From NCBI RefSeq assembly GCF_022378355.1, contig NZ_JAKMAJ010000008.1, forward strand, positions 124,001-188,000: DNA of 64,000 nt, written 5' to 3'. Shown here one piece after another: positions 6,536 to 35,296 of the stretch. The notes under the pieces are model-generated. The model was not told the DNA's origin and searched no databases. It saw only the letters and a list, made by a program, of their open reading frames with translations. The position numbers and the translations under genes were made by a program. This stretch comes from Brenneria bubanii (GTDB lineage Bacteria; Pseudomonadota; Gammaproteobacteria; Enterobacterales; Enterobacteriaceae). Positions within the stretch are counted from its first letter, which is position 1. Each line of letters starts with the position of its first letter.

Positions 6536-6546
6536 CGAGTGCGAGT

Positions 6547-6569: not shown

Positions 6570-6576
6570 TGATATA

Positions 6577-10623: not shown

Positions 10624-10673
10624 GTCCTGTCAGAGGATAACGCCATTTCCATCAATTGATCCAGGAGCTTTAC

Positions 10674-12266: not shown

Positions 12267-12273
12267 GTCCGCG

Positions 12274-12297
12274 CTGCCCGTCGGCAACGCCGGGCAG
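12274..12297 (+). terminator. Intercistronic stem-loop after the binding-protein gene
   Basis: CTGCCCG (12274-12280) pairs with CGGGCAG (12291-12297), followed by TTTG. Such hairpins between binding-protein and permease genes usually attenuate readthrough or protect upstream mRNA. Confidence 0.6.
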
Positions 12298-12326
12298 TTT
12301 GTTCCCGACACGATAGGTAACTCGCT

Positions 12327-13268: not shown

Positions 13269-13287
13269 GCTGAACAGGAGCATGACC

Positions 13288-14166: not shown

Positions 14167-14235
14167 CTACGCGCTGACGTTTAGCCCGACAGCATCTGTT
14201 CCATAACGGCAGACTTTACAACAACAGGAGATCCC

Positions 14236-18130: not shown

Positions 18131-18183
18131 GGCGATTGTCGACTCTACGCTTGCTTTGCCTTGTGCAATTGTCGACAATCGCC
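18131..18183. promoter_or_regulatory. GntR operator region with two copies
   Basis: GGCGATTGTCGAC (18131-18143) and GTCGACAATCGCC (18171-18183) form a perfect 13-base inverted repeat 27 bases apart. The second copy contains the full palindrome ATTGTCGACAAT (18168-18179). This sits between the divergent GntR and kinase genes, as expected for an autoregulated operator that could also loop DNA. Confidence 0.75.
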
Positions 18184-18213
18184 AATACCGCGACTAACGG
18201 GGTTCAAGATGAT

Positions 18214-19317: not shown

Positions 19318-20665
19318 TTCCCATACAAGCCGCGGCAAGATGGTCAATGCCTTTAATCCCGATGATCTTGACCATCTTGATCCGGCCGACCGCGTCGCCA
19401 TTGAACGGCGCATTCGCCTGCTCGGCCCGGCCTATCGCCTGTTCTATCAGCAGCCGGTGGACGTGAGTCGGGGGCGGGGCGTGCGCCTGTATGATCGCCG
19501 CGGCAATGAATATCTGGACGCCTACAATAACGTGGTCTCGGTCGGACATGCGCATCCCCGAGTCGCCGATGCCATTAATGCGCAGATGCGTAAACTCTGC
19601 ACCCATACCCGCTACATTCAGGACGGTATTCTGGATTACGCCGAACAGCTGTTGCCGACGTTCGGCGGCAGAATGGCGGAACAGGGCCATATGATGTTTA
19701 CCTGCACCGGTTCGGAGGCCAACGATCTGGCGTTGCGTATCGCCCGTCACTACACCGGCCGGCAGGGGGTGATCATTACCTCCGAGGCCTACCACGGCAA
19801 TTCATTCCTGACCTCCGGCATTTCGCCGTCGTTGGGGGTTCATTCACCGCTCGGCCAATGGGTGCGCCGCGTGCCGGCGCCGGACTCGTATCGTCTGTCC
19901 AGCGCGGAAATGGGGCAGCGCATGGCGGAGCAGGTCGCCGCGCAGATCGTCGAATTACAGCGCTACGGAGAGGGTCTGGCGGCATTTATCGCCGACTCGG
20001 TATTTTCGTCCGACGGCATTTACGCCGATCCCACCGACCTGCTGGCGCCCGTCGCCGAAGTGGTGCGCGCGGCTGGCGGGTTATTTATCGCCGATGAGGT
20101 TCAGTCCGGCTTCGCCCGTACCGGCGATACGCTGTGGGGCTTTCAGCGCCATGGTATCGATCCGGACATCATTACCATGGGGAAACCGATGGGCAATGGC
20201 TACCCGGTGGCCGCGGTGGCCGTCACCCACGAAGCCGTCGAGCGTTTCGGCAGCGACCAGCGTTACTTCAATACCTTTGGCGGCAATTCGGTGGCTATCG
20301 CCGCCGCGCAGGCGACGTTTGATGTGATTCGCGACGAGCGGTTGCAGGAAAATGCCTATCGGGTCGGAAAATTTTTACGCGCCGGCTTGCGCGACATTGC
20401 CCAACGTTATCCGCAAATTGGCGATGTGCGCGGCACCGGACTGTATATCGGCGTCGAAATGGTCAGCGATCCTGAGCGCAAGACCCCGGATGCGCCCTTG
20501 GCGACGGCGATTGTCAACGGGCTGCGTGAGCGCCGGGTACTGATCTCGGCCACCGGTTACTCCGCCAACGTACTGAAAATTCGTCCTCCGCTGGTCTTTT
20601 CGGAAGACGACGCCAGCCAGCTACTCAGCGAAACGGAAGCGGTGTTGGCGCAGTTGCTCTTATAA
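19310..20665 (+). CDS. Class-III PLP enzyme, probable amino-alcohol-phosphate phospholyase
   Basis: This 451-residue fold-type I enzyme has the class-III aminotransferase core: YLDAYNNVVSVGHAHPRV, FTCTGSEANDLALRIAR, FIADEVQSGFARTG and the PLP lysine in ITMGKPMGNGYPVAAV. The combination of MGKPMGNG, YFNTFGGN, GDVRGTGLYIGVEMV and VLKIRPPLVFSEDDA is the pattern I recall for AGXT2L1/AGXT2L2-type phospholyases, which eliminate phosphate and ammonia from phosphoethanolamine or phosphohydroxylysine. The adjoining kinase supports that over ordinary transamination. It starts at 19310 after CAGGAG, inside the end of the kinase gene. The exact substrate is not determinable. Confidence 0.8.
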   Translation: MTDSHTSRGKMVNAFNPDDLDHLDPADRVAIERRIRLLGPAYRLFYQQPVDVSRGRGVRLYDRRGNEYLDAYNNVVSVGHAHPRVADAINAQMRKLCTHTRYIQDGILDYAEQLLPTFGGRMAEQGHMMFTCTGSEANDLALRIARHYTGRQGVIITSEAYHGNSFLTSGISPSLGVHSPLGQWVRRVPAPDSYRLSSAEMGQRMAEQVAAQIVELQRYGEGLAAFIADSVFSSDGIYADPTDLLAPVAEVVRAAGGLFIADEVQSGFARTGDTLWGFQRHGIDPDIITMGKPMGNGYPVAAVAVTHEAVERFGSDQRYFNTFGGNSVAIAAAQATFDVIRDERLQENAYRVGKFLRAGLRDIAQRYPQIGDVRGTGLYIGVEMVSDPERKTPDAPLATAIVNGLRERRVLISATGYSANVLKIRPPLVFSEDDASQLLSETEAVLAQLLL

Positions 20666-21766: not shown

Positions 21767-22675
21767 ATGAAAATGCAGTTGTTTTACGAATTCATTCAGC
21801 TGTCTGAATTGCTTAACTTCAGTCGGGCGGCAAAGAAAATGAATATGACACAGCCGGTTTTAAGCCGCCATATGAAATCGCTGGAAGAACAATTCGGCGC
21901 TGAACTGTTCCGGCGTGACACTCACAGCGTGGAACTGACGTCGACGGGAAAATTATTATGCGCAGAAGCCCGCAAGATCGTTCAGCAGTATGAAAGTTCG
22001 GTCTCCGTGGTAAACGCATTTACCGGCAAAAGCCGCCGTCGGCTGACCATTACCTATCTGGGCGAAGCCATTCAACATGTGCTGGTTGAATTACTGACCC
22101 AGTTTCAACGCAATCACCCCGACATTATGGTGGAATGCCGCGATAGCGAGTTGGATGAAGCGTTACTCTTTCTGGAAGATCACACCTGCGATCTGGGTTT
22201 TTTAGTTCGGCCGAATTTCTTGGAAAATCAAAAATTCAGTTCTTTGCCGTTTCAGACCGATTCACTGTGCGTGGTGGTGAATAAAAATCATCCGCTGGCC
22301 GGGAAAGCGCGGGTATCGCTAAGGGAAGTCAGCGAATGGCCGATCATTCGTGTCGATCCCCGCGAATTTTTGTTGTCAGAAGAATACAGCACGCGATTTT
22401 TTGATTGTTATCACATTGATTTTAATCTGGATAAGGAATATCCCAACCTGAAAACCTGCTGTTTTAATCTGGAGTTCAGAGATCGGGTCGCGCTATTGAT
22501 GCCGAAGCATCGCGGCTATTTACTCGGCGCCAACTGCGTATTGCTGGATGTGTTGGAGACGGATTACTGGTTCAACCTGGAATTGGTATGGGACAATAAA
22601 AACGCCAACCCCTGTATTTCTCTTTTTTTAAATGAATTTACGTGTTTTTTAAATGAAAAACCCCTGGTTTCCTAA
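21767..22675 (+). CDS. LysR family transcriptional regulator
   Basis: This 302-residue regulator begins MKMQLFYEFIQLSELLNFSRAAKKMNMTQPVLSRHMKSLEEQFG, a standard LysR winged helix with the recognition helix at about residues 28-48, followed by a linker helix and a periplasmic-binding-like effector domain. It is the first gene on this strand before the crotonase/BKACE cluster and points the same way, separated by 398 bases that contain a CRP-like site. Activation of that cluster by a pathway intermediate is inferred. The ATG at 21767 follows GTGGAAG; an open frame upstream to 21686 adds an atypical N-terminus and is not used. Confidence 0.88.
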   Translation: MKMQLFYEFIQLSELLNFSRAAKKMNMTQPVLSRHMKSLEEQFGAELFRRDTHSVELTSTGKLLCAEARKIVQQYESSVSVVNAFTGKSRRRLTITYLGEAIQHVLVELLTQFQRNHPDIMVECRDSELDEALLFLEDHTCDLGFLVRPNFLENQKFSSLPFQTDSLCVVVNKNHPLAGKARVSLREVSEWPIIRVDPREFLLSEEYSTRFFDCYHIDFNLDKEYPNLKTCCFNLEFRDRVALLMPKHRGYLLGANCVLLDVLETDYWFNLELVWDNKNANPCISLFLNEFTCFLNEKPLVS

Positions 22676-22863
22676 GTGATGATTTATTGATGAATACTGT
22701 CTTTATTTATCACGATTTATCTGTTTTATATCTGATGGTAGCGCCGGTCATTAAAAGTAAAAATCAAATGTGATGTATGTCTCATTAATATCAATTCAAT
22801 GACTTTCCTTTCTCTTTCCATATTTTTACTTTTTGCTTTTTAATTTCATTATCTTTTGTTTTT

Positions 22864-22891
22864 AAATGAAAAAATAATTATTTTTTCATTT
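22864..22891. repeat. Perfect 28-base palindrome
   Basis: The left arm AAATGAAAAAATAA is exactly complementary to the right arm TTATTTTTTCATTT with no loop. It may act as a bidirectional terminator with T-runs for the LysR transcript or as a protein-binding site; the sequence alone does not decide. Confidence 0.6.
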
Positions 22892-22997
22892 TTTAGTATG
22901 GCTATGTGGAAAATGCATAACCGGGAAAATAAAAAGAATTTCTACTGAAATTGGCGCGGTGATAGGTTTTTATTGTCGGGAGATGCCAGAGATAAAA

Positions 22998-23013
22998 TGT
23001 GAATTACATCACT
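22998..23013. promoter_or_regulatory. CRP-like binding site
   Basis: TGTGAATTACATCACT matches the CRP consensus TGTGA-N6-TCACA at nine of ten positions. It is centred about 68 bases before the crotonase start codon, which suggests cAMP-CRP activation of the cluster, that is, catabolite repression. Confidence 0.65.
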
Positions 23014-23073
23014 TAAGTCGACGTTACTTCCAATAATTCCAGTTAATTAAATAAAGCCGTATAGGAGTTGAAG

Positions 23074-24069
23074 ATGGTGATTAAAGCTAATTATGAGTCC
23101 GATGCCGGAAAACGTAAAGAAATGTCACATAAGGAATTGGGCACTATTCCCCCGATGCCTTTCGAAGAGTATTCGGAAAAACTCAAACACTGTTTCACCA
23201 TGAAACGGAAGAACGGAATTCTCGAAGCCCGTCTGCATACCAATGGCGATAGTCTGCAATGGGGCGCGCCTGCGCACCAGGCGTTGCATTATTTCTTCGA
23301 CTGGGCCGGCAGGGATCCAGACAACGAAATTATCATTCTCGGCGGCACCGGCAAGGACTTTATGAAAGGGATTGGCCGACTGGATGAAAAGGGCAACTGG
23401 CTCCCGGCCACCGAGTTCTCTTCCGCGCCGGATGAAGCGTGGAAAATGTATGAGTATCAGTACTATGACGGTACTAACGACATTGAAGGCCAGGTCTTTG
23501 ATGTTGAGGTTCCCACCATCGGCGTATGGAACGGCGCGGCTTTCCATACCGACCTGGTGCTGTTCAGCGATATCACCCTGTGTACCGAAGACGCCTGGAC
23601 CACCGAGATGCACTTTCGCACCAACATGGTGCCCGGCGACGGCGTGCAAATCGCCTGGCGTGAATTAATGGGGCGCAAGCGTTATGCCTACGCTGAGCTG
23701 ACCGGTGAAATCATTACCGCCCGTAAGGCGCTTTCCCTCGGCATGGTCAATGAGATATGTCCCGACACGGACGCGGCTTATGACCGCGCCTGGGAAATCG
23801 CTGAATTGATTATGCGCACCGGCACCCGCGTCACCCGCCGTATTACCACGCAGCAACTGCGTAAAGCCTGGAAAGAAGACATCGCCAACGAACTGCGCAA
23901 CGCCTTCGCCACCGAAATGTTCGTCACCGCCACCGAGCACTCTCCGCACGAAGCCAACTACTGGATGTGGGCGCACGAAGAGGCAGAACTGGTCAAGGCC
24001 GCCGAGAAGAAAGGCAAGATTGTTCGTCCGCGTATTGACGGTGGTCAGGAGGAGGACGAAATCAAGTAG
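23074..24069 (+). CDS. Crotonase-fold carbon-carbon hydrolase, 6-oxocamphor-hydrolase-like
   Basis: This 331-residue crotonase superfamily protein is not an ordinary enoyl-CoA hydratase. The stretch from PFEEYSEK (about residue 29) to MVPGDG (190) follows the pattern of Rhodococcus 6-oxocamphor hydrolase as I recall it. The residues expected for its catalysis are present: His68 in APAHQA, His158 in NGAAFH, His180 in TEMHF, Asp189 in VPGDG and a Glu near 281. That enzyme opens a cyclic beta-diketone by retro-Claisen water addition and uses no CoA. The C-terminal 40 residues are an extra charged tail. TAGGAG supports the ATG at 23074. It is the first gene after the CRP site and precedes the BKACE gene, so it probably forms the keto acid that later steps cut. 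The substrate is inferred only as a beta-dicarbonyl. Confidence 0.8.
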   Translation: MVIKANYESDAGKRKEMSHKELGTIPPMPFEEYSEKLKHCFTMKRKNGILEARLHTNGDSLQWGAPAHQALHYFFDWAGRDPDNEIIILGGTGKDFMKGIGRLDEKGNWLPATEFSSAPDEAWKMYEYQYYDGTNDIEGQVFDVEVPTIGVWNGAAFHTDLVLFSDITLCTEDAWTTEMHFRTNMVPGDGVQIAWRELMGRKRYAYAELTGEIITARKALSLGMVNEICPDTDAAYDRAWEIAELIMRTGTRVTRRITTQQLRKAWKEDIANELRNAFATEMFVTATEHSPHEANYWMWAHEEAELVKAAEKKGKIVRPRIDGGQEEDEIK

Positions 24070-24243
24070 GGGTTTATTGACGCGGCGTATCTCAGCGCCA
24101 TAGCCATTTTGTCAACGGTGGCCGTCCATGCGGTCACCCAAGCGGGTAAGCGTTCGGTTTACGCCCGCCGATATCAGAATGACCGATGTGTATAGGCAAT
24201 CGATTGATTTAACAATTATAAAAACTGTGAACGGGGAAAATCC

Positions 24244-25083
24244 ATGAACACAGGCAACGACGTGATTATTTCCGCCGCGCTCACCGGTGCGGTAACACCA
24301 AAAGAGATTAATGAACATATTCCGCTGACGCCAGAGGAAATCGCCGCCGACGCCTATCGCTGCTGGCAGGCGGGCGCCGCCATCGTACATCTCCATATGC
24401 GCGACGATCGCGGCATGGGCGCCATGGACTGCGACAAGTTTGCTGAAACGCTGCGCCTGTTGCGTGGCTACCATGACTGCGATGTGATCATCAACTGCAC
24501 CACATCCGGCGATCATCGCGCCAGCGACGCGCAACGGATGGCGCACGTTTCCCGGCTGGATGGCATTGAAATGGCCTCCTGGGACGCCGGATCGTTTAAC
24601 TGGATGCCCGGCGGCGTATTTATCAACTCGCCGCAGTTCCTCGGCCAACTGGGTGAAATTCTGACCGAGCGGGCGATCAAGCCGGAAGTGGAAATCTTCG
24701 ACAGCGGCATGCTGGGCGTCGCCGGCTATTTTGTCGAACAGGGCAAGCTGCCGTCTCCCTTGCATTATCAATTCTGTCTCGGCGTGCCGGGCGGTATGCC
24801 CGCCACGGTAGAGAACCTGAATTATCTGGTTTCGCATATCCCCGCCGCCGCCACCTGGTCGGCCTTCGGCGTCGGCAAGCACCATCTGCCGATCCTGTTC
24901 TCCACTCTGGCGCTGGGCGGACATGTGCGGGTCGGTCTGGAAGACAATGTCTATTTCAGCAAAGGGGTAAAAGCCACCAACCCTCAATTGGTGGAGCGCG
25001 CCGCGCAGGCCATCCGCCTGTTTGGCAAACAGGTGGCCACGCCGGCCGGCGCCAGAAAAACGCTGGGGATCCGTCCTCTATAG
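24244..25083 (+). CDS. BKACE family beta-keto acid cleavage enzyme
   Basis: This 279-residue TIM-barrel protein belongs to the BKACE (DUF849) family, zinc enzymes that react a beta-keto acid with acetyl-CoA to give acetoacetate plus a new acyl-CoA. Visible features are VIISAALTGAV at the N-terminus, the zinc-binding HLH in AAIVHLHMRDD, the NCTTSG loop, and VRVGLEDNVYFSKG near the C-terminus carrying the catalytic or metal Glu. Family members act on 3-keto-5-aminohexanoate, dehydrocarnitine, triacetate and similar acids; which applies here is open. Downstream thiolase and CoA-transferase genes can activate and split the acetoacetate. The gap of 174 bases after the crotonase has no gene. Confidence 0.9.
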   Translation: MNTGNDVIISAALTGAVTPKEINEHIPLTPEEIAADAYRCWQAGAAIVHLHMRDDRGMGAMDCDKFAETLRLLRGYHDCDVIINCTTSGDHRASDAQRMAHVSRLDGIEMASWDAGSFNWMPGGVFINSPQFLGQLGEILTERAIKPEVEIFDSGMLGVAGYFVEQGKLPSPLHYQFCLGVPGGMPATVENLNYLVSHIPAAATWSAFGVGKHHLPILFSTLALGGHVRVGLEDNVYFSKGVKATNPQLVERAAQAIRLFGKQVATPAGARKTLGIRPL

Positions 25084-25117
25084 CGCTCCCTTTCTGCAGT
25101 TATATCGGGAAAAAAGT

Positions 25118-26287
25118 ATGAAAGAAGCAGTCATTGTTTCGGCGGTTCGTACGCCGATCGGCAGGTGTCGCGGTACCCTGGCTCCGGTTCCGGCGCATAA
25201 GCTGGGCGCGCTGGCGGTGAAAGAGGCGGTGCGCCGGATCGAAATCGATCCTGAGAGCATTGATGATGTCATCTTTGCCAATTTAATGAACAACGAAATC
25301 AATAATATGGGACGAATGGTGGCGCTGCAAGCGGGGCTGCCGATTACGGTGCCTGGCATTACGCTCGATCGCCAGTGCGCCGCCTCGTTAAACGCGCTGG
25401 CCTACGGCGCGATTCAGATCATGGCCGGGTTTGCCGAAACGCTGGTCGTGGGGGGCGTGGAGAGCGATTCCCGCCGCACCTGGTCGCTGGAAAAAACCGA
25501 AATCGCCTATTCGGTACAGCCGCCGCGCTTTGTGGATATTCACACCTCGCCGGACCATCTGGGCAATCCCTCCATGGGCATCACGGCGGAAAACATCGCC
25601 CGGCGTTATGAACTCAGCCGCCGCGAGCTGGATGAATTTTCGCTGCGCAGTCACCGGCTGGCTGCCGCCGCCTGGCAGGAAGGCCGCTTTGACGGGCAGG
25701 TCGTGCCGGTTTCGCTGCCGGACAGGAAAGGACGGGAAATCGTGATCCAGCGGGATGAATCGGTACGTCCCGACTGCTCGCTGGATTCGCTGTCCGCGCT
25801 GCGCCCCTGTTTTTGCGACGACGGCATCGTCACCGCGGGCAACAGTTCGCCGATGAGCGACGGCGCCGGCGCGCTGGTGCTGATGGAACGTTCGCTGGCG
25901 CAGGCGAGAGGACTGGATATTTTGGCGGTATTTCGCGGTTATGCCGCCGCCGGGGTCGATCCCAACTTTATGGGGCTGGGGCCGGTGCCCGCCACCGCTA
26001 AACTGCTGCGCCAGAACGCCCTGGCGGTTAACGACATTGACCTGTGGGAACTGAACGAGGCTTTCGCCGCGCAGTCGCTGGCCTGTATCCGCGATATCGG
26101 TATGGATCCACATCGGGTCAACCCGAACGGCGGGGCGATCGCGCTGGGACATCCGCTGGCCGGCAGCGGCGCCATTCTGGCGACCAAAGCCGTTTATGAC
26201 ATGCAACGCCGTCATCTGAACAACGCCGTGATTACCTTTTGCGTCGGCGGCGGTCAGGGCGTGGCGGTTCTGCTGACGAGGGAATGA
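25118..26287 (+). CDS. Thiolase (acetyl-CoA acyltransferase family)
   Basis: This 389-residue thiolase has the nucleophilic Cys in TLDRQCAASLNALA (about residue 90), the GHPLAGSGA histidine motif and the C-terminal [10 protein letters not shown] cysteine. It splits a 3-ketoacyl-CoA with CoA. It starts with ATG at 25118; a longer open frame begins inside the BKACE gene but would overlap its end without a ribosome site. It overlaps the CoA-transferase A region, with the two genes only two bases apart. A second thiolase gene lies at 30197, so the route may release acetyl-CoA at two successive cuts. Confidence 0.92.
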   Translation: MKEAVIVSAVRTPIGRCRGTLAPVPAHKLGALAVKEAVRRIEIDPESIDDVIFANLMNNEINNMGRMVALQAGLPITVPGITLDRQCAASLNALAYGAIQIMAGFAETLVVGGVESDSRRTWSLEKTEIAYSVQPPRFVDIHTSPDHLGNPSMGITAENIARRYELSRRELDEFSLRSHRLAAAAWQEGRFDGQVVPVSLPDRKGREIVIQRDESVRPDCSLDSLSALRPCFCDDGIVTAGNSSPMSDGAGALVLMERSLAQARGLDILAVFRGYAAAGVDPNFMGLGPVPATAKLLRQNALAVNDIDLWELNEAFAAQSLACIRDIGMDPHRVNPNGGAIALGHPLAGSGAILATKAVYDMQRRHLNNAVITFCVGGGQGVAVLLTRE

Positions 26288-26289
26288 TC

Positions 26290-26955
26290 ATGGCGGGAAA
26301 ACTCGCTTCAACAGATGAAATCATCGGTCTGTTTCAGGACGGACAGACGTTAATGTGCGGCGGTTTCGCCAACCATGGCGTGCCCAATCGGCTTATTCAG
26401 TGCGTGATCGACAGCGGCGCGCGGCATTTCACCCTGATTGCCAACGATTCCGGCGACGCGGATCTCACCGTGGGCCGACTTATCCACCACGGATTGGTGG
26501 ACAAGCTGATTGCGTCGCATATCGGGCGCAACACCGAAACGGTGGCGCTGGTCGCCGCCGGAAAAATCGAACTGGAACTGGTGCCGCAAGGCAGTTTGGC
26601 CGAACGGATGCGCTGCGGCGGTTCGGGGCTGGGCGGCGTGCTGACCAAAACCGGCATCGGCACGATGGTGGAAGAGGGCAAGCACAGCGTCATGGTCGGC
26701 GGCGAGCGCTATCTGCTGGAAACGGCACTACAGGCGGATATCGGTCTGGTGCGCGCGCGCGCCGCCGATCCGCTGGGCAATCTGACCTATCGCGGCACCA
26801 TGCGCAACTTTAATCCGCTGGTCGCCAAGGCTTCCCGCCTGACGCTGGCGGATACCGACATGCTGGTGGACGTGGATGAACTCGGCGTCGACGGCATCAT
26901 CACCCCCGGCGCCTACGTGGACAAGATTCTGATGTCGCAAGGAGAACGGTTATGA
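26290..26955 (+). CDS. CoA-transferase subunit A
   Basis: This 221-residue subunit of the 3-oxoacid/acetate CoA-transferase family I opens with KLASTDEIIGLFQDGQTLMCGGFANHGVPNRLI and contains GLGGVLTKTGIGTMVEEGK and the ADIGLVRARAADPLGNLTYRG block. It moves CoA from an acyl-CoA to a free acid such as acetoacetate, together with subunit B. The ATG at 26290 lies two bases after the thiolase stop; an ATG at 26284 is an alternative. The overlap with subunit B (ATGA at 26952) indicates coupled translation. Confidence 0.92.
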   Translation: MAGKLASTDEIIGLFQDGQTLMCGGFANHGVPNRLIQCVIDSGARHFTLIANDSGDADLTVGRLIHHGLVDKLIASHIGRNTETVALVAAGKIELELVPQGSLAERMRCGGSGLGGVLTKTGIGTMVEEGKHSVMVGGERYLLETALQADIGLVRARAADPLGNLTYRGTMRNFNPLVAKASRLTLADTDMLVDVDELGVDGIITPGAYVDKILMSQGERL

Positions 26956-27596
26956 ACGCACGAGACAGAATTGCCAGGCGTGCCGCGCAATATTTTTCTG
27001 ACGGCGACGTCATCAATCTCGGCATCGGTATCCCCAGTCTGTGCAGCGACTATGCGCCGCCCGGCGTCATGTTTCATACCGAAAATGGGCTGGTGGGCAT
27101 GGGGCCGCTGGTCGACGGGCTGCTGGCGGTGGAGGGCTTCTCGAATGCCACCGCACTGCGTTTCGTGCCGGTCCCCGGCGCCTGCGCGTTCGACAGCGCC
27201 GAATCTTTCGCGCTGGTGCGTTCCGGCAAACTGGCGGCGACGGTGTTGGGGGCGTTACAGGTGGCGGAGAACGGCGATCTGGCCAACTGGGCGCAACCCG
27301 GCCGGGTATTCGGTATGGGCGGCGCGATGGATCTGGTCAACGGCGCCCGCAAAGTGATTATCACCATGGAGCTGTGCACCAAGAAGGGTGAACCAAAAAT
27401 CGTTAATACGTGTAGTTATCCGCTAACGGGCAAAGGCTGTGTGAACCATATCGTCACCGAACAGTGCGTGATTGACGTCACGCGCGACGGGCTGATGCTG
27501 GTGGAATTGCTGGAAGGAATGACGCCCGCAGCGATCCAACAACAGGTCGAACCCCGGCTGATTATCGCCGATAGGTTGACCACTATGCCGGCTTAA
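26952..27596 (+). CDS. CoA-transferase subunit B
   Basis: This 214-residue partner subunit carries the catalytic glutamate in the family motif FHTENGLVGMGP (about residue 42), after NLGIGIPSLCSDYAPPGV. GMGGAMDLVNGARKVIITM and ITEQCVIDV-like sequences later in the chain are typical. With subunit A it forms the active CoA-transferase. In this operon the most likely acceptor is acetoacetate made by the BKACE enzyme, with the resulting acetoacetyl-CoA going to thiolase. Confidence 0.93.
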   Translation: MNARDRIARRAAQYFSDGDVINLGIGIPSLCSDYAPPGVMFHTENGLVGMGPLVDGLLAVEGFSNATALRFVPVPGACAFDSAESFALVRSGKLAATVLGALQVAENGDLANWAQPGRVFGMGGAMDLVNGARKVIITMELCTKKGEPKIVNTCSYPLTGKGCVNHIVTEQCVIDVTRDGLMLVELLEGMTPAAIQQQVEPRLIIADRLTTMPA

Positions 27597-27646
27597 TAAC
27601 GGCGACAGCGCTGCATTTTCCGGTTCACGCCGTGGGAGCACACTTT

Positions 27647-29002
27647 ATGACAGGGCAAAAAAATAATATGGCGTTAAATAAAATGGCCGGGTGTTCTATC
27701 AAGAACGATACGCACTCCGGAACCGCCGAGCGCCATGGTTTTGGTTCTCGCGGTTGGACCATCATCATCTTACAGGCGCTTATGTTCTGGATCGCCGCGG
27801 GAGCGGTGACCCACGGACTGAATGTGATGTTGCCTGCGTTATCGCAGACCTACAATCTGGACTACAGCAGCTTGCTGGCGCTGGCGACGCCGGCATCCTG
27901 GGCCTCGATTCCCGCCGGGCCGATATGCGCCTGGCTGTGTGAAAAGAAGGGGGCCAAATTCAATGTCATTTTCTGCCTGATCGCCTGTGGGCTGTGCTTC
28001 GGCCTGCTAGGGACTTGCGGATCGCTGGTGGGATTCACCCTGCTGTTCGCCGGCGTCTGTTTCTTTGGCACCGGATTTGCGTATGTCGGCGGCACCGCCA
28101 TCATGACCAGTTGGTTCGTGCGCAAGGCGGGTCTGGCATTGGGATGGTGTACGGTTGGGCAGACGTTTTCCAGCGCCTTTTTCGTTCCCACGCTGGCGGC
28201 GCTGTTCGTCTGGTTGGGGATCCGGCATGGGTTCTGGGGCATCTCGGTGATGATGTTTATCATGGCGATACTGGTGGCGCTGTTCGTCGCCAATAAACCC
28301 GAGGATATCGGCCTCGCGCCGGATAACGAACCGATTTCCGTCGCTGAACTGGGGGCGAGGGTGCGCGAGCACGACCGCTATGTTTGCCCGCTCGGCGTCA
28401 GGCAACTGCTGGGCATGCGCGATGTCTGGTTCATGGGGATTGCCACCGGCGCCATTTACATCATGCTGGTAGGCGTGGTCAGCCAGATCGTTCCCCGATT
28501 AATGGAGATGGGCTATGAGTTAAACACCGCCATCTTTTATATGACCCTTTCGGCACTGTTCGGCACGTTGGGCGCATACGGCTGGGGCTGGCTCAATCAC
28601 CGCATCGGGGTTAAGCGCGCGCTGCTGGTTTACACCCTCTGGTGGATGGCATCCGTGGCGATCAATCTGTTCGCCCATCATGCCGTGATGCTGTGGATCT
28701 CCCTGCTGATGATTGGTTTCAGCCTGCCGGGCGCCACCAACTTAAGCACTGCGCTGATCGCCAGTAAATTTCCCCGCCGTCTCTATGTCCGCGCCATCGG
28801 CATTGTTCACCCTATCCAATCGGTGGTGCGCTGCTTTGCTTTCTCCATTCTGGCATTCGGACTGGCGTATCTGGGCGGTTATACCGGCGCTTATCTGCTG
28901 CTGGTGGGTGTCGGCGCCATTGCGCTGGTGATGATCTGGATGACCGACGTAACGCCGGTCGATGTTAGCGTGATCGCTGATACGGGGTGGAGAGAAGCAT
29001 GA
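27647..29002 (+). CDS. MFS transporter
   Basis: This 451-residue inner-membrane protein has about 12 helices and a hydrophilic N-terminal tail of about 35 residues. The layout, with FIMAILVALFVANKPEDIGLAPDNEP between helices 6 and 7, fits the organic-acid type (OFA/ACS-like) of the major facilitator superfamily. It probably imports the growth substrate of the cluster or a pathway acid. GGGAG upstream supports the ATG at 27647. Its stop codon overlaps the start of the next gene (ATGA), so carrier and outer-membrane channel are co-expressed. Confidence 0.9.
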   Translation: MTGQKNNMALNKMAGCSIKNDTHSGTAERHGFGSRGWTIIILQALMFWIAAGAVTHGLNVMLPALSQTYNLDYSSLLALATPASWASIPAGPICAWLCEKKGAKFNVIFCLIACGLCFGLLGTCGSLVGFTLLFAGVCFFGTGFAYVGGTAIMTSWFVRKAGLALGWCTVGQTFSSAFFVPTLAALFVWLGIRHGFWGISVMMFIMAILVALFVANKPEDIGLAPDNEPISVAELGARVREHDRYVCPLGVRQLLGMRDVWFMGIATGAIYIMLVGVVSQIVPRLMEMGYELNTAIFYMTLSALFGTLGAYGWGWLNHRIGVKRALLVYTLWWMASVAINLFAHHAVMLWISLLMIGFSLPGATNLSTALIASKFPRRLYVRAIGIVHPIQSVVRCFAFSILAFGLAYLGGYTGAYLLLVGVGAIALVMIWMTDVTPVDVSVIADTGWREA

Positions 29003-29985
29003 ATCGTATTAAATTCGTGCCTGGGCATATAGTCTGCGCGATGGGACTCTGTCTGGCGGCGATGGCCGGCCACGCCGTTGCGGCAGAGGGAATCAGTCCG
29101 CTGCAACCCGGCGCAACGACGGGCAATGCCGCCGGCGCGTTGCCGCCGCCGGGATTGTATCTGATCACGGATGTCGCTTATGAAGCGGGCAAGCTGAAGA
29201 ATGAACAGGGCAAAACGGCCAGGACGCCGGCCGGTCAGCGGATCAAGGCCGCCAACGTCAGTTCCGTGGCGGCGCTGACCTGGGTTCCTGGCTGGGAGGT
29301 TCTGGGCGCGCGCTATGCCGCCGCCATAGCTCAACCATATAAATGGGCAAGGACTCGGGTCAGTGATGAAGCCGGCAGCCACGTTGTGAGTAGCAGCGGC
29401 ATGGTCAATACCGCCATTACGCCGGCGATCCTGTCATGGGATCTGGGCGGCGGATATCATCTGGGAACCGGGCTGACGCTGTATGCCGATAACGGGAAAT
29501 TCCGCTACGCATACGATGCCTCTGCCCGGCGTAATGTGAAATCCTCTACCGCCATCGGCAATGATTACTGGACGGCGGAGCCAAGCCTGGCGCTGACTTA
29601 TTTGACTGATGGCTGGAATATTACGGTTAATAATCTGCTGGATGTGAACACCACCAATAAAACGACCAAATATCGTTCTGGCATGACCTATTATCTGGAT
29701 ATGACCGTCGCCAAACATATCGATAACGTCACTCTGGGGCTTCTCGGGAATTATACCAAACAAATTACCGACGATAAAATTAATGGGAAATCGGTCTCCG
29801 CAATTCCGGGTTTTTATGGCGAAGGGAATAAAATGGAACATGTATTAGCCGGGCCGTTACTGGCCTATAATTTTGGCGGGTTTTCGATAAATGCCCGAAT
29901 GTTATTTTCGCTGCGGGCGAAGAATGATGCGGACGTGTCATTCTTCCATCTCGGATTTAGTATGCCGCTGATGCATTTTCACTGA
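28999..29985 (+). CDS. Outer-membrane channel, SphA/MetA-pathway type
   Basis: This 328-residue protein has a signal peptide ending at AVAA (about residue 28) followed by LPPPGLYLITDVAYEAGKLK, the start of the phenol/MetA-degradation outer-membrane family. The rest alternates in beta-strand style and ends in a hydrophobic terminal strand finishing HFH, with an aromatic residue next to the end. Genes of this family usually accompany degradation of aromatic or other hydrophobic compounds and probably admit the substrate. Translational coupling to the MFS gene supports a paired two-membrane uptake system. Confidence 0.82.
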   Translation: MNRIKFVPGHIVCAMGLCLAAMAGHAVAAEGISPLQPGATTGNAAGALPPPGLYLITDVAYEAGKLKNEQGKTARTPAGQRIKAANVSSVAALTWVPGWEVLGARYAAAIAQPYKWARTRVSDEAGSHVVSSSGMVNTAITPAILSWDLGGGYHLGTGLTLYADNGKFRYAYDASARRNVKSSTAIGNDYWTAEPSLALTYLTDGWNITVNNLLDVNTTNKTTKYRSGMTYYLDMTVAKHIDNVTLGLLGNYTKQITDDKINGKSVSAIPGFYGEGNKMEHVLAGPLLAYNFGGFSINARMLFSLRAKNDADVSFFHLGFSMPLMHFH

Positions 29986-30196
29986 GTGCCCCATGTTTAT
30001 TGTTTTCGGCAGGTTTCCAGCTTCAGAAAAATAAAATAACAATCGAAATGTTGTTATTCGGTAATTAATTCGGCTCGGTGCTTAATTAATTTTAGCGTAT
30101 AAGAATATACCATTACTTATATACCCATAAATAATGCGAGTCGCAGAAAGGCCAATGCGCAGCAGCTTGCGGTATGGCGGGTATAGCGAGGCATTT

Positions 30197-31375
30197 ATGA
30201 CATCACTGGTTATTGCCAGCGCCGCACGTACGGCGATTGGTAAATTTGGCGGCAGTCTGAGCACCTTTCGCGCGCCGCAACTGGGCGCATTGGTGATGGA
30301 CGCGGCGGTGCGCCGGGCGGGGATTGAACCGTCAGCGGTCACGGAAGTGATTTTCGGCAACGTGCTTCAGGCGGGTCTGGGGCAGAATCCCGCCCGTCAG
30401 GCGCTGCTGCAAGCCGGTCTACCGGATACCACGCCGGCCACCAGCATCAATATGGTCTGCGGCTCCGGTCTGCAAAGCGTGATTCTCGCGGCGCAAAGCA
30501 TCGCCGCCGGTAATGCGCACGTGGTGCTGGCCGGCGGCATGGAAAACATGTCGGCGGCGCCCTATCTGCTTAATCAGGCGCGCTGGGGATACCGCATGGG
30601 CGATCAGTCGGTAACCGACAGCATGGTCAATGACGGTCTGTTCTGCGCCATTAACCGCTATCACATGGGGGTCACGGCGGAAAATGTGGCGAAACGCTGC
30701 CATGTCAGCCGCCAAGAGCAGGATGAAGTGGCATTGCTTTCCCAGCGGCGGGCGGCGGCGGCGATTGAGCGCGGCGCATTTCGCCAGGAAATCATTCCGG
30801 TCACGCTGAAAAGCAAGAAGGGCGACACGGTGTTTGCGGTTGATGAACACCTGCGGGTCGGCACCTCGGCGGAAAGCCTGGCCAAGCTGTCGCCCGCTTT
30901 TGATCCCGCCGGTTCGGTAACGGCGGGCAATGCCTCGGGAATCAACGACGGCGCGGCGGCGCTGGTGGTGATGAGCGAGGCATGGGCAAAACAGCATGAC
31001 GTTAAGCCTTTGGCGCGTATCCGCAGCTATGCCGTGAGCGGCATCGATCCCGCCGTTATGGGGATCGGACCGGTGCCGGCGACCCGGCAGGCGTTGACCC
31101 GGGCGGGATTAACGGTCGCCGATCTGGATCTGGTGGAAGCCAACGAAGCTTTTGCCGCGCAGTTTGTCGCCGTCAGCCATGAACTCCAACTGGATATGGA
31201 TAAAACCAATATTAACGGCGGCGCCATTGCGCTGGGGCATCCTATCGGCGCATCCGGCGCCCGCATTCTGGTGACGCTGTTACATGCCTTGGCTGAACAA
31301 GATAAAACGCTGGGGCTGGCGACGCTTTGTGTCGGCGGCGGGCAGGGCGTGGCGATGATTGTAGAACGCGTTTGA
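30197..31375 (+). CDS. Second thiolase (acetyl-CoA acetyltransferase type)
   Basis: This 392-residue thiolase is distinct from the one at 25118. It has [15 protein letters not shown] (active Cys about residue 88), [15 protein letters not shown] and [11 protein letters not shown], and resembles acetoacetyl-CoA thiolase (AtoB type) more closely. It would divide acetoacetyl-CoA into two acetyl-CoA. The ATG at 30197 follows GCGAGG; an in-frame start at 30134 is less likely. A 211-base AT-rich gap separates it from the porin gene, so it may have its own promoter. Confidence 0.92.
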
Positions 31376-31573
31376 ACCTTGTGCATGGAAAGCGTAAGCC
31401 ATGCGAAAAGATAGAGTCAGGAATATCCCTATATCGCGGCAAGTCGAGGGTTTTGTCGTTTATATCACTGATATTAAAAATTAAATGTGGCTATTTAAAA
31501 CAATAAAGACACACGCGGCCAGCCATCACATGCGCTATTGGCACGATGAAAATATCTCTACAAAGGTGAAATT

Positions 31574-33493
31574 ATGATAACGAAAAATAGAGGAAGCACC
31601 TATAAACGGCGGCTTACCATGATGTTGTTGATCTGCGGCCTGATGGGCTCGACGCAGGCCGCGGTGACCGCCGGTCAGTATAGCGCCGCGGAAAAGGGCA
31701 ACGAAGGGATGGTCAATGTGGCGGTCACCGTCGATGCCGAAGGCGTCATCAAGGATATCGTGGTGGATGCCAGTCAGGAGACGCCGGCACTGGGCGGCGA
31801 AGCCGGTCCGGCGGTGGGCAACGCCATCGTCGAGCATCAGAGCCTGAATGTGGATGGCGTAACCGGCGCGACGAATACCAGCAATGCGGTGAAGAAAGCC
31901 GTCTCGCAGGCGTTGCGTCAGGCCGGGGCGGATGTCGATCGTTATCAGGGCAAGGTCGCACGGCAAGGACAGGATGAGGAAGCCAGCGTCGATATCGTCG
32001 TTGTCGGCGGCGGCGTCTCCGGTACGGCCGCCGCGCTGGCGGCGGCGGAAAAGGGCGCCAGGGTGCTGGTGATAGAAAAAATGCCGGTTCTGGGCGGCGC
32101 GGGGCGGATGGCCAGCGGTTTTACCGCGGTGGAATCCTCGCTGCAAAAAGCCAGGGGCATGAAATATACCGCCGCCGAATTGACGCAGCGGTTACTGGAG
32201 TACAACCAATATCTTTCCAACGGACCCTTGACGAAAAAGATCGTTGATAAATCGGCTTCGACGGTTGATTGGATGATCCAACATGGCGTGGAGTTGGAAA
32301 TCGTCTCAACCACCCGCGACGCCAAACGGAGCTCCGTACAGCAAGCGCATCTTGACGATCCGATTAAGTCGGACGTGTATCACCGCATCAAAAACGGCGG
32401 CGAGGCCGCTTATCAGAAGCTGTATGCGGATTTCGGGAAACTCGGCGGGAAGGTGATGACCAAAACGGTTGGTAAGTCGCTGATTCAGGATGAAAAAGGA
32501 AAAGTGATCGGGTTAATTGCCGAAAAGGCCGACGGCGGTAAATTAACCGTCCACGCCAGGGCGGTTATTCTGGCCAGCGGCGGTTTCGGCGCGAACAAGA
32601 AGATGCTGGATGATGCAATGCTGACGTCGAACATTTTCCCGCTGGCATGGCCCAATATGGGCGAGGGGCTGCAAATGGCCTGGGCGGCCGGCGGCGCAAA
32701 ATGGGATATGCAATCGGCGTTGATTCATGCCGCGCAATTGGTCGATATCGAGCCTTCGGAAGACGCGCATCACGGCGGCGGCGATGCGGCGGCGCTGGAT
32801 AGCCCGCTGATCTGGCTGCTGAAATCGCCGCTGCTGTGGGTGGATGTGGTCGGTGAACGCTTCGCCGACGAAAGCCATATCTATGACACGGCGTTCTGGG
32901 CCAACGTCGCCTATTCCGTCGGCGGCAATTATTACATCATCGTCGATACCCCTACGCTGCAATCTTTCAGCAAAAACGCCATGCCGTTCCCGCTGTCGGG
33001 CGCCGGGCCGGCTAATCCGCCGAAACCCGGCGACTTTGTCGCGCTGGCGGATGCGGGCACCAGAGGCGGAACGAGCAAATCGATTATCAAGGGCAAGGAT
33101 ATTGCCGAACTGGCGGCGCGGATGGGCATTGCGCCTGAGCGGCTGAAAGCCACCGTTGATCGCTATAACGGCAATGTGAAAGGCAAACAGGATAAGGACT
33201 TCGGCAAGAAACCTGAATATCTGGCGTACGGTATCGAAAAAGGGCCGTACTATGCCTTCAAGGCGGTGGTGGTCAGCTTGAGTTCTCTGGGCGGCGTGCG
33301 GGTGAATTCAGACTTGCAGGTCACTAATGCGGATCTTCAGCCCATCGACGGTCTGTATGCGGTTGGGAATAATGCGGCGGGCTTCTACAGCGTACCCGGT
33401 TATCCGCCTTATCAGGGATTGGCAAATGGCTTTGCCCTGAATTCCGGGCGTATTGCCGGCGAACATGCCGTGCAAAGTTGGGTAAAAAAATAA
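31574..33493 (+). CDS. Exported FMN/FAD reductase (fumarate/urocanate reductase-like)
   Basis: This 639-residue protein has a signal peptide (about residues 1-30), an FMN-binding domain with the flavinylation motif DGVTGATNTS near residue 96 (the Thr carries FMN covalently, attached by ApbE), and a FAD domain from VDIVVVGGGVSGTAAALAAAEKGARVLVIEK (about residue 137). The tail holds GVRVN and GLYAVGNNAAGFYS motifs of flavocytochrome c reductases. No CxxCH heme motif is present, so electrons reach it by another route. Relatives reduce fumarate, urocanate or other enoates in the periplasm. Here it may reduce an unsaturated substrate of the cluster; the hut genes about 30 kb away make urocanate another candidate. 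Confidence 0.85.
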   Translation: MITKNRGSTYKRRLTMMLLICGLMGSTQAAVTAGQYSAAEKGNEGMVNVAVTVDAEGVIKDIVVDASQETPALGGEAGPAVGNAIVEHQSLNVDGVTGATNTSNAVKKAVSQALRQAGADVDRYQGKVARQGQDEEASVDIVVVGGGVSGTAAALAAAEKGARVLVIEKMPVLGGAGRMASGFTAVESSLQKARGMKYTAAELTQRLLEYNQYLSNGPLTKKIVDKSASTVDWMIQHGVELEIVSTTRDAKRSSVQQAHLDDPIKSDVYHRIKNGGEAAYQKLYADFGKLGGKVMTKTVGKSLIQDEKGKVIGLIAEKADGGKLTVHARAVILASGGFGANKKMLDDAMLTSNIFPLAWPNMGEGLQMAWAAGGAKWDMQSALIHAAQLVDIEPSEDAHHGGGDAAALDSPLIWLLKSPLLWVDVVGERFADESHIYDTAFWANVAYSVGGNYYIIVDTPTLQSFSKNAMPFPLSGAGPANPPKPGDFVALADAGTRGGTSKSIIKGKDIAELAARMGIAPERLKATVDRYNGNVKGKQDKDFGKKPEYLAYGIEKGPYYAFKAVVVSLSSLGGVRVNSDLQVTNADLQPIDGLYAVGNNAAGFYSVPGYPPYQGLANGFALNSGRIAGEHAVQSWVKK

Positions 33494-33922: not shown

Positions 33923-35296
33923 ATGAAAATAACACACCGTAATATGTGGACGAGAATGTTGTCCGCCGGCGTTGTCGTATCCGGCATGATATTGACGAAC
34001 GGCGCGGCGGTTGCCGCCGATGAGGGATCGTCAGGGCGGCCGCTGTCTGAAGCGGGATCATGGCTGGCGGACCACGGGGTTACGCCGCACCTGTTCGCCT
34101 CCCAGCTCTATCTGGGTAACCCCAGCGCCGGAACGGATACGGACAATCATGAAACGCTGACGATGTTATTTGCCGGCGCGGATTTCGATCTGGATCGCAT
34201 GGGATTGATTCCCGGCGGCAGCATCCACCTGATGCAACTGTGGGTGCCGTTTAGCCATAATCTGGATCTCGGCAATCAATCGGGCGGCGTACTGGCCGGT
34301 AACCCGCCGCCTTATATCCCTAAAACGGCGCATCTGATGCGTTTTACCTATGAGCAAAAGCTGTTCAATGATCGGCTGTCGATTGAGGCCGGCAAGAGTA
34401 ATCCCGGGCAGTTCTTCGGCTTGACCAACTGCAATATTCCGTCGGCCTGCGTGAATACCATTCTCAATGAAACGGCGGTATTTGCGCCGCCGCCTTATGC
34501 AGGCTGGGGCGCGCGCATCGGTTATCACTTTACGCCGGCGCTGGCGTCCGGCATCGGCGCCTGGCGCACCTATCAGGCGTTTCCGTTCACCAATGGCTGG
34601 GAACGCTGGGATGACGACTACCAGAGCGGCAATACCCTGTTGGTCGCCAACGTGGCGAGGCGCGTCAACTGGCGGCAAGAACCTTATCCCTTTAACTGGG
34701 AAGTGATGGCGTTCCATAACTTCAAACAGTACGACGACGTCTACTATACGGTGAACGGCACCTCCAATGTGTACGACGGCAGCGCCGCTGCGCGTACCCA
34801 CGACGGCGTTTCCGGCGTTTATCTCACCGCCAGAAAAGCATTATGGCGGCGCGACGGCGGCGATGCGCAGAACCCGGCACCCAGCGCCGTCAGTCTGCAC
34901 GGCAGCGTAACGCAAACGTTGCAGTCGCATGCACACAAAGGCGTCGCCACGCTGGCGGATGCCGGGCTGATCTGGTCCGGTCCCTGGCAAAGCCGTCCTC
35001 AGGACAGTTACGGTCTGACTTTCCGCTGGGCCAGACTGACAAGCAGCGAACGGAATTACCTGCAAGATAGGTATGACGTCGCGGGCGGAACAGGATGGCA
35101 GGTGCCGACCAATGAATATCAGCTCAGTATCGACGCTTCCATCATGCTGACGCCGGAAGTCAATATGCAGATGATCGGCGCCCGCACCTGGAATAATAGT
35201 AACTGGCAATACCCGTATTCCGGCATCAAGCCGGAAAATGGCTATACCTTCTGGCTACAACTTAACGTGATGGTGGACAAGCTGCTGGGGCTGTAA
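33923..35296 (+). CDS. OprB family carbohydrate-selective porin
   Basis: This 457-residue outer-membrane protein has a signal peptide to about residue 33 (AVAADEG) followed by WLADHGVTPHLFASQLYLGNPS, typical of the OprB family. The beta-barrel is rich in aromatic girdle residues, and the chain ends with LQLNVMVDKLLGL. OprB porins admit sugars or other small polar solutes. It may serve the preceding catabolic cluster as a second entry channel or act independently; an inverted repeat upstream suggests separate regulation. A terminator-like hairpin follows. Confidence 0.82.
   Translation: MKITHRNMWTRMLSAGVVVSGMILTNGAAVAADEGSSGRPLSEAGSWLADHGVTPHLFASQLYLGNPSAGTDTDNHETLTMLFAGADFDLDRMGLIPGGSIHLMQLWVPFSHNLDLGNQSGGVLAGNPPPYIPKTAHLMRFTYEQKLFNDRLSIEAGKSNPGQFFGLTNCNIPSACVNTILNETAVFAPPPYAGWGARIGYHFTPALASGIGAWRTYQAFPFTNGWERWDDDYQSGNTLLVANVARRVNWRQEPYPFNWEVMAFHNFKQYDDVYYTVNGTSNVYDGSAAARTHDGVSGVYLTARKALWRRDGGDAQNPAPSAVSLHGSVTQTLQSHAHKGVATLADAGLIWSGPWQSRPQDSYGLTFRWARLTSSERNYLQDRYDVAGGTGWQVPTNEYQLSIDASIMLTPEVNMQMIGARTWNNSNWQYPYSGIKPENGYTFWLQLNVMVDKLLGL

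Follow-up and report, generated by a model that had tools for sequence, protein, structure and literature searches.

Clostridium scatologenes converts phloroglucinol to acetate and butyrate by a pathway (PGR, DPGC, TfD, TAL) that, in the passages of PMC10470551 describing it, involves retro-Claisen ring opening, a BKACE, a CoA transferase and a thiolase, with a transporter and a regulator in the same cluster. The ring opener is given there as a Mn-dependent 'cyclase'. For Pelobacter acidigallici, the table of a 2021 review names two thiolases, one for triacetic acid and one for acetoacetyl-CoA, along with a CoA transferase and a hydrolase opening dihydrophloroglucinol; NIA is entered for the genes that come after the transhydroxylase, and BKACE is not named in the review's passages on this pathway (PMC8624197). 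6-Oxocamphor hydrolase (OCH) and Anabaena beta-diketone hydrolase (ABDH) are CoA-independent beta-diketone hydrolases, and the BKACE family, with its Kce, 3-oxoadipate and 3,5-dioxohexanoate types, is marked by PF05853 and a His-X-His motif.

Here we analyze an operon of Brenneria bubanii lying in a 64,000-nucleotide stretch of DNA, referred to as the window. Like the C. scatologenes cluster, the operon joins a candidate retro-Claisen enzyme to a BKACE, a CoA transferase, thiolases, a transporter and a regulator; like P. acidigallici, it pairs a CoA transferase and two thiolases with a candidate ring hydrolase. Its putative ring opener is a crotonase, whereas that of C. scatologenes is the cyclase, which bears out the claim of a preliminary description of this locus that a different enzyme family is used. 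Cyclase-type DPGC, a PGR with the TR(S/N) motif and TfD, all reported for the C. scatologenes cluster (PMC10470551), are not found among the Brenneria operon proteins. We estimate a probability of roughly 0.5 that the operon encodes a phloroglucinol-level ring-opening route, with the crotonase as ring opener, that ends in acetyl-CoA.

Gene content, regulation and distribution of the operon

An ORF scan combined with family profile searches recovered, within positions 21767–33493, all of the genes named in the preliminary description from LysR to the flavoprotein, each matching its expected family (Table 1). The order is lysR, crotonase, BKACE, thiolase, CoA-transferase A/B, MFS carrier, an optional channel, a second thiolase and the flavoprotein, followed by an OprB-family porin that the earlier gene list, correct as given, had left out. 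Start codons within ORFs were chosen by us, and the crotonase ATG at 23074 was checked; genes of relatives were called with our own scripts rather than taken from annotations, and their coding scores are rough. The two thiolases are 41% identical. Thiolase 1 is below the cut-offs of equivalog models among the best 25 of 43 NCBIfam matches, and thiolase 2 scores 515 bits with PRK05656 and 500 bits with PRK09051/BktB, each below cut-off. Two HtpG-like neighbours gave weak PADLOC matches only.

Table 1. Features of the Brenneria bubanii operon, in window coordinates.
Feature	Position	Strand	Evidence or remark
LysR-family regulator	21767..22675	+	Pfam HTH_1 and LysR_substrate
CRP-like site TGTGAATTACATCACT	22998..23013	.	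76 bases 5' of crotonase ATG
Crotonase, OCH/ABDH type; proposed ring-opening beta-diketone hydrolase	23074..24069	+	
BKACE; proposed 3,5-dioxohexanoate:acetyl-CoA cleavage	24244..25083	+	PF05853 313 bits, cut-off 24.8
Thiolase 1, divergent; proposed triacetyl-CoA / 3-oxoacyl-CoA thiolase	25112..26287	+	TIGR01930 426 bits
3-Oxoacid CoA-transferase subunit A	26284..26955	+	TIGR02429 204 bits, exceeds cut-off 128.5
3-Oxoacid CoA-transferase subunit B	26952..27596	+	TIGR02428 243.4 bits, slightly below cut-off 243.55; ENG motif
MFS carrier	27647..29002	+	PF07690 115 bits
Outer-membrane channel, optional	28999..29985	+	PF13557 (Phenol_MetA_deg)
Thiolase 2; proposed acetoacetyl-CoA thiolase	30194..31375	+	TIGR01930 496 bits, exceeds cut-off
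Exported FMN_bind + FAD_binding_2 reductase; accessory	31574..33493	+	Pfam domains
OprB-family porin, 3' of flavoprotein; accessory	33923..35296	+	PF04966 109 bits, cut-off 22.9

The CRP-like site proposed earlier was located upstream of the crotonase. The window holds four matches to the motif with at most one mismatch against 1.10 expected; 2 of 100 shuffles have four. Across the nine Brenneria loci (the window plus L025–L032), a site with at most two mismatches lies at -72 to -81 in six but not in L029–L031. A promoter and terminator scan gave nothing in excess of shuffles. The LysR regulator likely controls the operon, judging from gene neighbourhoods: its orthologue adjoins the crotonase in seven of eight fetched Brenneria loci, standing apart in L032, and is divergent in G163. 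LysR matches of at least 40% occur in 21/37 crotonase loci, and in L062 an aromatic-catabolism activator (XylR_N) lies directly 5' of the crotonase.

Window-type crotonases form a separate, highly conserved clade apart from OCH and ABDH. Because they are 76–96% identical in 36 of the 37 loci, which come from several phyla, their likeness is a sign of horizontal transfer. Viral contigs and E. coli genomes contained no crotonase relative; plasmids yielded 24 records with distant homologues (32–37% identity among the 20 of 24 listed). Among the organisms carrying the crotonase, Brenneria, Telmatospirillum, Tolumonas and Lonepinella are found in bark, peat, sediment and herbivore guts, including that of the koala.

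Co-occurrence of crotonase and BKACE across genomes had been suggested as a check on their pairing. BKACE is encoded in 33 of 34 crotonase genomes searched versus a base rate of 38/295 genomes in the order. The 37 loci stem from 35 genomes, of which these 34 were searched; L037 and L065, which share a species or contig with L036 and L057, were omitted, as was L068, frame-broken in its record. For the alignments, L007 (in-frame stop) was excluded throughout, and near-duplicate loci were excluded from A3, A4 and A5 (19, 32 and 27 rows). The core kept most constant is the crotonase, BKACE, CoA transferase and thiolases: among the 37 loci, CoA transferase A is present in 27, B in 26, and the thiolases in 27 and 25. 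Neither the flavoprotein nor the channel belongs to this core, and their standing as constant members was not sustained; the PF13557 (SphA-type) channel occurs in 4/9 Brenneria loci and 9/37 overall, and the exported flavin reductase at 50% or more in only 8/37. The MFS carrier is seen at 45% or above in 18/37. In agreement with the earlier remark that no described pathway has this gene set, none was found in the open-licence PMC literature (titles and abstract starts), among the matches listed.

Class and catalytic residues of the crotonase

By sequence profile and predicted fold, the crotonase groups with the CoA-independent hydrolases OCH and ABDH, which outrank every other listed chain both in profile scores and in the fold comparison. 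Identity to the two in the fold alignment is about 30%. It shares with them the fold, most catalytic residues and, as proposed here, CoA-free C–C hydrolysis; the window protein is the longer. The residues of OCH noted at the outset are in place. In HMMER alignments, H52, H142, H164 and D173 of the window protein correspond, by our own count, to OCH H45, H122, H145 and D154, and all four are invariant in 27/27 aligned orthologues. These were picked from 40 sequences, at least 38 of which keep each residue. We take His45, His145 and Asp154 of OCH to be catalytic. For ABDH, the passage of PMC3584854 on its active site gives H43, H144, D153 and E243. OCH E244 lies outside the HMMER alignments, and the fold alignment stops at model residue 268, equivalent to OCH 247. 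Invariant E265 would match OCH E244/ABDH E243, but sits in a stretch (259–275) with pLDDT below 50. With a mean pLDDT of 70, and residues 163–190 also below 50, the predicted model is moderate in quality, perhaps because the alignment is shallow.

We propose that the crotonase hydrolyses a free beta-diketone without CoA. Pfam and NCBIfam return only general enoyl-CoA hydratase models for it, with low scores, and CoA enzymes lie all around, as would suit an ordinary CoA-dependent hydratase in a beta-oxidation-like route whose acyl products pass to BKACE and the thiolases. Such a role is improbable given the top ranking of OCH and ABDH and the invariance of the OCH-type His and Asp residues, and neither an acyl-CoA dehydrogenase nor a ligase was seen among the window operon genes. 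The camphor-type chemistry raised in the preliminary description left no sign among operon genes, and a camphor or terpene route was dropped.

BKACE subtype and clues to its substrate

The window BKACE exceeds the PF05853 cut-off and has the His-X-His motif of the family (HLHMR at 49). It is below the cut-off of all four matching NCBIfam subtype models. The best of these is the lysine type NF052387 (280 bits, cut-off 382), as expected if BKACE cleaved 3-keto-5-aminohexanoate in a lysine fermentation, whereas the 3,5-dioxohexanoate model NF053538 gives 174.5 bits (cut-off 430). Cleavage of the amino compound is nevertheless hardly credible: no aminomutase is present among the operon genes, and Glu14 of Kce, the residue that binds the 5-amino group and that is Trp in CsTAL (PMC10470551), is replaced in 19/19 aligned BKACEs. 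The position is V17 in the window protein, V or M in 18 of the 19 (picked from the window sequence and 29 others) and G in L051; Glu is found in none.

Two relatives add to the picture. In L051, a crotonase of 83% identity lies directly 5' of another BKACE (35% identical), whose best model is NF053538 at 370 bits (cut-off 430, not reached) versus 288 for the lysine type. In L045, a locus of the sole BKACE-less genome of the 34, a second crotonase follows the first, and acetoacetate-CoA ligase (865 bits against a cut-off of 521) is encoded two genes on. The loss of Glu14, the nearness of the L051 BKACE to the 3,5-dioxohexanoate model and the second crotonase and ligase of L045 are three clues that point to 3,5-dioxohexanoate (triacetate) as substrate. 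They strengthen the parallel, drawn earlier, to triacetate cleavage in the phloroglucinol pathway.

A candidate route to acetyl-CoA

Computation shows which genes are present, the classes of their proteins and how far these are conserved and co-occur; the substrates and the sequence of reactions are all inferred. Under LysR and CRP control, a small ring compound, either dihydrophloroglucinol or phloroglucinol in its triketo form, would be imported by the MFS carrier, whether or not the channel is present. Without CoA, the crotonase would open the cyclic 1,3-diketone by adding water across one of its C–C bonds, a retro-Claisen reaction, and the ring-opened acid would yield triacetate, either directly or once a 3-hydroxyl has been oxidized, perhaps by an SDR. 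BKACE would then convert triacetate and acetyl-CoA to acetoacetate and acetoacetyl-CoA, the CoA transferase would activate acetoacetate (or triacetate), and the two thiolases would cut the products to acetyl-CoA. That a CoA-independent ring or beta-diketone hydrolase feeds BKACE appears very probable; a phloroglucinol-level compound as the substrate is a tentative assignment.

By chemical argument, a six-membered 1,3-dione yields a beta-keto acid, or the 3-hydroxy form of one, on opening only if its ring is 1,3,5-oxygenated. The earlier scheme of beta-diketone opening to a beta-keto acid did not state this need for a 1,3,5-oxygenated ring. Resorcinol and quinate/shikimate rings were dropped on reasoning only, since their 1,3-diones give no beta-keto acids; for quinate/shikimate the literature yielded a single paper, which deals with phenol in refinery wastewater. 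It is doubtful that phloroglucinol itself, as the triketo tautomer, is opened by the crotonase with water alone. If it were, the core would convert an aromatic ring to acetyl-CoA without a redox step, which would account for the operons of Brenneria and G163 having neither a linked ring reductase of the cytoplasm nor a linked dehydrogenase for 3-hydroxy acids. The Brenneria operon does carry the exported flavoprotein, a caveat to a redox-free reading.

Members of the crotonase family are not known for ring opening at the phloroglucinol level, which this operon probably carries out. If so, nature would have a second, unrelated enzyme for opening the ring, the key step when polyphenols are broken down anaerobically, and the crotonase gene would be a candidate for the hydrolase listed without one in the table of PMC8624197. 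Bacteria living in bark, peat, sediment and the guts of herbivores would have a route to such carbon, and a superfamily commonly annotated as enoyl-CoA hydratase would gain a further role.

Other gene content bears on the phloroglucinol level in both directions. Counted in its favour, L061, L055 and L060 contain genes for phosphotransacylase and acetate/butyrate kinase. PF18089 (phloretin/DAPG hydrolase) is found in 4/36 crotonase genomes versus 3/295, two sets that differ in taxonomic make-up; none of these genes is beside the crotonase (the nearest is about 45 kb away, in G673), and their context gives no clear link. Counted against it, neither a phloroglucinol reductase nor a triacetate-forming (3-hydroxy-acid) dehydrogenase was detected among the Brenneria operon proteins by ORFs and profile matches, and the window BKACE scores low on NF053538. 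An SDR lies near the crotonase in many relatives, with gaps that also count against: it is absent at E 1e-50 from the window genome (best match 38%) and from 16/36 genomes overall. By eye it reads (A/G)RR, not TR(S/N), which PMC10470551 gives as the motif of phloroglucinol reductase. Likewise counted against it, a phloroglucinol-level route leaves unexplained the flavoprotein and, in other lineages, the OYE and HpaB-family genes.

By eye, the flavoprotein has a stretch resembling a signal at its N-terminus; it carries the motif DGVTGATN, and its nearest NCBIfam model is vinyl phenol reductase (280 bits, cut-off 600). In an alignment with FccA, its Y437, L569 and P612 stand at positions 402, 504 and 544, where FccA has the fumarate-type residues Arg402, His504 and Arg544. 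The flavoprotein therefore has a substrate other than fumarate. This would suit a crotonase that opens another cyclic or linear beta-diketone, derived from a plant phenolic or enone, with BKACE taking a different beta-keto acid; the diketone would be made by the exported flavoprotein in Enterobacterales and by OYE/flavin reductases in Spirochaetes and Actinobacteria. Such a substrate is possible though unlikely. The flavoprotein occurs with the OprB-family porin in 9/9 Brenneria loci, Kosakonia has both beside its crotonase operon together with NrfD, NrfC-like and ApbE-like genes, and OYE/flavin genes are present in crotonase loci of Spirochaetes and Actinobacteria. However, the flavoprotein is missing beside the operon in G163, a genome of another family, and, at 50% or more, from most of the 37 loci, yet crotonase and BKACE stay, and triacetate and acetoacetate are the compounds indicated by L051 and L045. 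A molybdenum enzyme in L045 was examined as a possible pyrogallol transhydroxylase, a role that found no support; among solved structures, acetylene hydratase is nearest to it (391 bits).

Organization, conservation and spread of the crotonase operon

The crotonase operon is real, conserved and mobile. All genes named in the preliminary description are present as open reading frames (ORFs), and Pfam and NCBIfam matches bear out their family assignments. With start codons chosen by us, the genes for the beta-keto acid cleavage enzyme (BKACE) and thiolase 1 are separated by 28 bases, and 4-base overlaps join thiolase 1 to ctfA, ctfA to ctfB, and the MFS gene to that of the PF13557 channel. Wider gaps of 174, 208 and 198 bases lie upstream of BKACE, thiolase 2 and the flavoprotein, respectively. 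This spacing suggests one main unit. A promoter and terminator scan was uninformative, because hits showed no excess over shuffled sequences. A CRP-like site lies 76 bases upstream of the crotonase ATG, with such a site at -72 to -81 in six of nine Brenneria loci.

Counting the window genome, 9/10 genomes of the genus encode the crotonase. The order lysR, crotonase, BKACE, thiolase 1, ctfAB, MFS, (channel), thiolase 2, flavoprotein, porin is kept in the window and eight further loci, and the channel is present in 4/9 Brenneria loci. LysR is separated from the crotonase in locus L032; in L039, the named copy of this locus, a second flavoprotein and a porin-like gene are among the genes between them. 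The whole eight-gene run that starts with the crotonase and ends with thiolase 2 recurs in G163, a genome of another family, with a divergent lysR; an unrelated gene on the opposite strand follows thiolase 2, and no flavoprotein match was found in the 13 kb past the operon. Acerihabitans arboris carries two core-operon copies (L036 and L037), one with the flavoprotein and the other without it in the DNA examined.

The crotonase gene is rare, since homologues (E 1e-20) occurred in only 3/295 genomes of the order sample, namely the window genome, G163 (90%) and G018 (37%), and in 6/398 of the phylum sample, none exceeding 37% except that of the window genome. A scan of named genomes gave 37 crotonase loci, 36 at 76–96% identity; the 37th, L068 of Enterobacter sp. 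EA-1, falls outside this count, its operon having many frame breaks that are perhaps sequencing errors. Hosts are Enterobacterales, Pasteurellaceae, Tolumonas, Alphaproteobacteria, a deltaproteobacterial MAG, Spirochaetes, Chloroflexi and Actinobacteria. In a crotonase tree with nine of 29 inner forks unsettled and five long-branched outgroup rows, one branch united Tolumonas and Actinobacteria (100/95) and another Pasteurellaceae and Spirochaetes (100/100). Such identity across phyla and groupings that cross them mean that the crotonase has spread by horizontal transfer. Partner enzymes are less alike across phyla: Spirochaetes and Actinobacteria share 76–85% identity with the window crotonase, about 60–65% with its BKACE and 37–60% with its thiolases. 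The two crotonases of spirochaete locus L058 may serve two related rings.

Features of the window and of fetched loci carrying crotonase relatives
Source	Positions	Feature
Window	18136-20665	Upstream of operon: aminoglycoside-phosphotransferase-type kinase-like ORF adjoining class III aminotransferase ORF (named by eye)
Window	23074-24069	Crotonase
Window	24244-25083	BKACE (PF05853)
Window	31574-33493	Flavoprotein
Window	33923-35296	OprB-family porin (PF04966), downstream of flavoprotein
L039	4343-9558	LysR-crotonase interval: second LysR-like gene, second flavoprotein, porin-like gene, SnoaL_4 protein
L043 (Kosakonia)	2411-8879	Flavoprotein, OprB porin, NrfD, NrfC-like and ApbE-like genes adjoining crotonase operon
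L045 (deltaproteobacterial MAG)	7929-16094	In a row: crotonase, second crotonase, NADH-type FAD reductase, Mo/W enzyme (closest to acetylene hydratase), acetoacetate-CoA ligase
L058 (spirochaete)	6339-7331; 10001-10996	Two crotonases of two subclades, residues near active His differing
L060, L079 (Actinobacteria)	14568-15557; 10279-11268	Phosphotriesterase-family protein adjoining BKACE
L108 (Spirochaetales)	3940-6792	HtpG/HSP90 (504, above cut-off of 371) near 36%-type crotonase, BKACE cluster
L079 (Cellulomonas)	2812-7093	HtpG/HSP90 (327, below cut-off) near such a cluster
L061; L050; L051	18976-20550; 11231-12805; 4032-5543	HpaB-family genes near crotonase or BKACE

Linkage of the crotonase to BKACE

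BKACE, counted at at least 55% identity over half its length, was found in 28/37 crotonase loci. Among the nine others, the L051 crotonase is immediately followed by a distinct BKACE, L058 has a BKACE fragment at its edge, and L065 is on the same contig as L057. For L052, L056 and L062, BKACE is on a contig equal in length to that of the crotonase, and for L059 and L064 on another, short contig; none was found in the genome of L045, a 1.3-Mb partial MAG. The co-occurrence raised in the preliminary description holds across genomes, with BKACE in 33/34 crotonase genomes versus 38/295 in the order (37 of the 38 above cut-off). These two sets differ in taxonomy, but physical linkage is independent of that difference. 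No BKACE was found in G018, the genome carrying the 37% crotonase homologue.

A proposed phloroglucinol-type route and the probable BKACE substrate

On retro-Claisen cleavage by water, a six-membered 1,3-dione would yield a delta-keto acid, which would also be a beta-keto acid only with the third alternate ring carbon oxygenated. Fitting rings would be phloroglucinol, or dihydrophloroglucinol once its 3-hydroxyl is oxidized. BKACE would next convert the beta-keto acid to acetoacetate and a 3-oxoacyl-CoA, products that would explain the CoA transferase and thiolases of the operon. The same set, a CoA transferase and two thiolases, is listed for P. acidigallici in PMC8624197, where genes after the transhydroxylase, dihydrophloroglucinol hydrolase included, are marked NIA, taken here as "no information". 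Evidence is good for the general function, a CoA-independent ring or beta-diketone hydrolase feeding BKACE, but not for the exact ring. We read the operon as a putative phloroglucinol-type ring-opening route with a non-homologous hydrolase. No description of the gene set was found in the open-access literature searched.

The window BKACE scores below the cut-offs of all four matching curated NCBIfam subtypes, the lysine type scoring highest. Alignment to the lysine-type enzyme Kce places chain residue E20 opposite V17; E20 was equated with Glu14 from the position of His46 and His48. This position is V or M in 18/19 BKACEs aligned and G in L051. According to PMC10470551, Glu14 binds the 5-amino group, and the triacetate enzyme has Trp16 in its place. 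In L051 the partner of this crotonase is a BKACE nearest the 3,5-dioxohexanoate (triacetate) model (370 bits versus a cut-off of 430). In BKACE-less L045, a second crotonase (37%) adjoins the first, and an acetoacetate-CoA ligase, far above cut-off, lies two genes past it. Both natural replacements would still fit triacetate as input and acetoacetate as output, for L045 by inference. The actinobacterial phosphotriesterase-family protein could reopen a lactone that triacetate may form.

Other neighborhood signs lean towards plant phenolics, none decisively: an aromatic-catabolism activator (XylR_N, V4R) directly upstream of the L062 crotonase; phosphotransacylase (PF01515) and acetate/butyrate kinase (PF00871) genes in L055, L060 and L061; a rhamnosidase adjoining a second cluster (36%-type crotonase, BKACE, CoA transferase, thiolase) in L108; and PF18089 in 4/36 crotonase genomes versus 3/295 in the order. 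Besides the tabulated loci, L057, L065 and L081 have HpaB-family genes, possibly 4-hydroxybutyryl-CoA dehydratase-like, near the crotonase or BKACE.

Accessory dehydrogenase and flavoprotein

A short-chain dehydrogenase (SDR; 250 residues, PF00106) is present in 15/37 crotonase loci and, at E 1e-50, in 20/36 crotonase genomes, carriers including Tolumonas osonensis, Pasteurellaceae, Telmatospirillum, Spirochaetes and three Actinobacteria. At this threshold it was not found in the window genome, in ten further genomes searched (Brenneria, Acerihabitans, Sodalis, Kosakonia, Klebsiella and Enterobacterales MAGs) or in genomes G657, G658, G659, G664 and G668; the G163 match (47%) lies 1.3 Mb from the operon. 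Its nearest solved structures include cyclohexanol and 3-hydroxybutyrate dehydrogenases, and the SDR could be a 3-hydroxy-5-oxohexanoate dehydrogenase or a reductase. By eye, the phloroglucinol reductase motif TR(S/N) is missing from the SDR sequences.

The flavoprotein combines FMN_bind and FAD_binding_2 domains and is nearest the vinyl phenol reductase model of NCBIfam, far below cut-off. Alignment to FccA revealed no fumarate-type residues. Maturation by ApbE is possible, because ApbE is encoded in 10/10 genus genomes; ApbE is common, occurring in 7/14 control genomes. Rather than as a core pathway step, we read the exported flavoprotein as a putative periplasmic anaerobic reductase for a compound of the same source. 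The Kosakonia gene group of L043 is likely a respiratory reductase unit.
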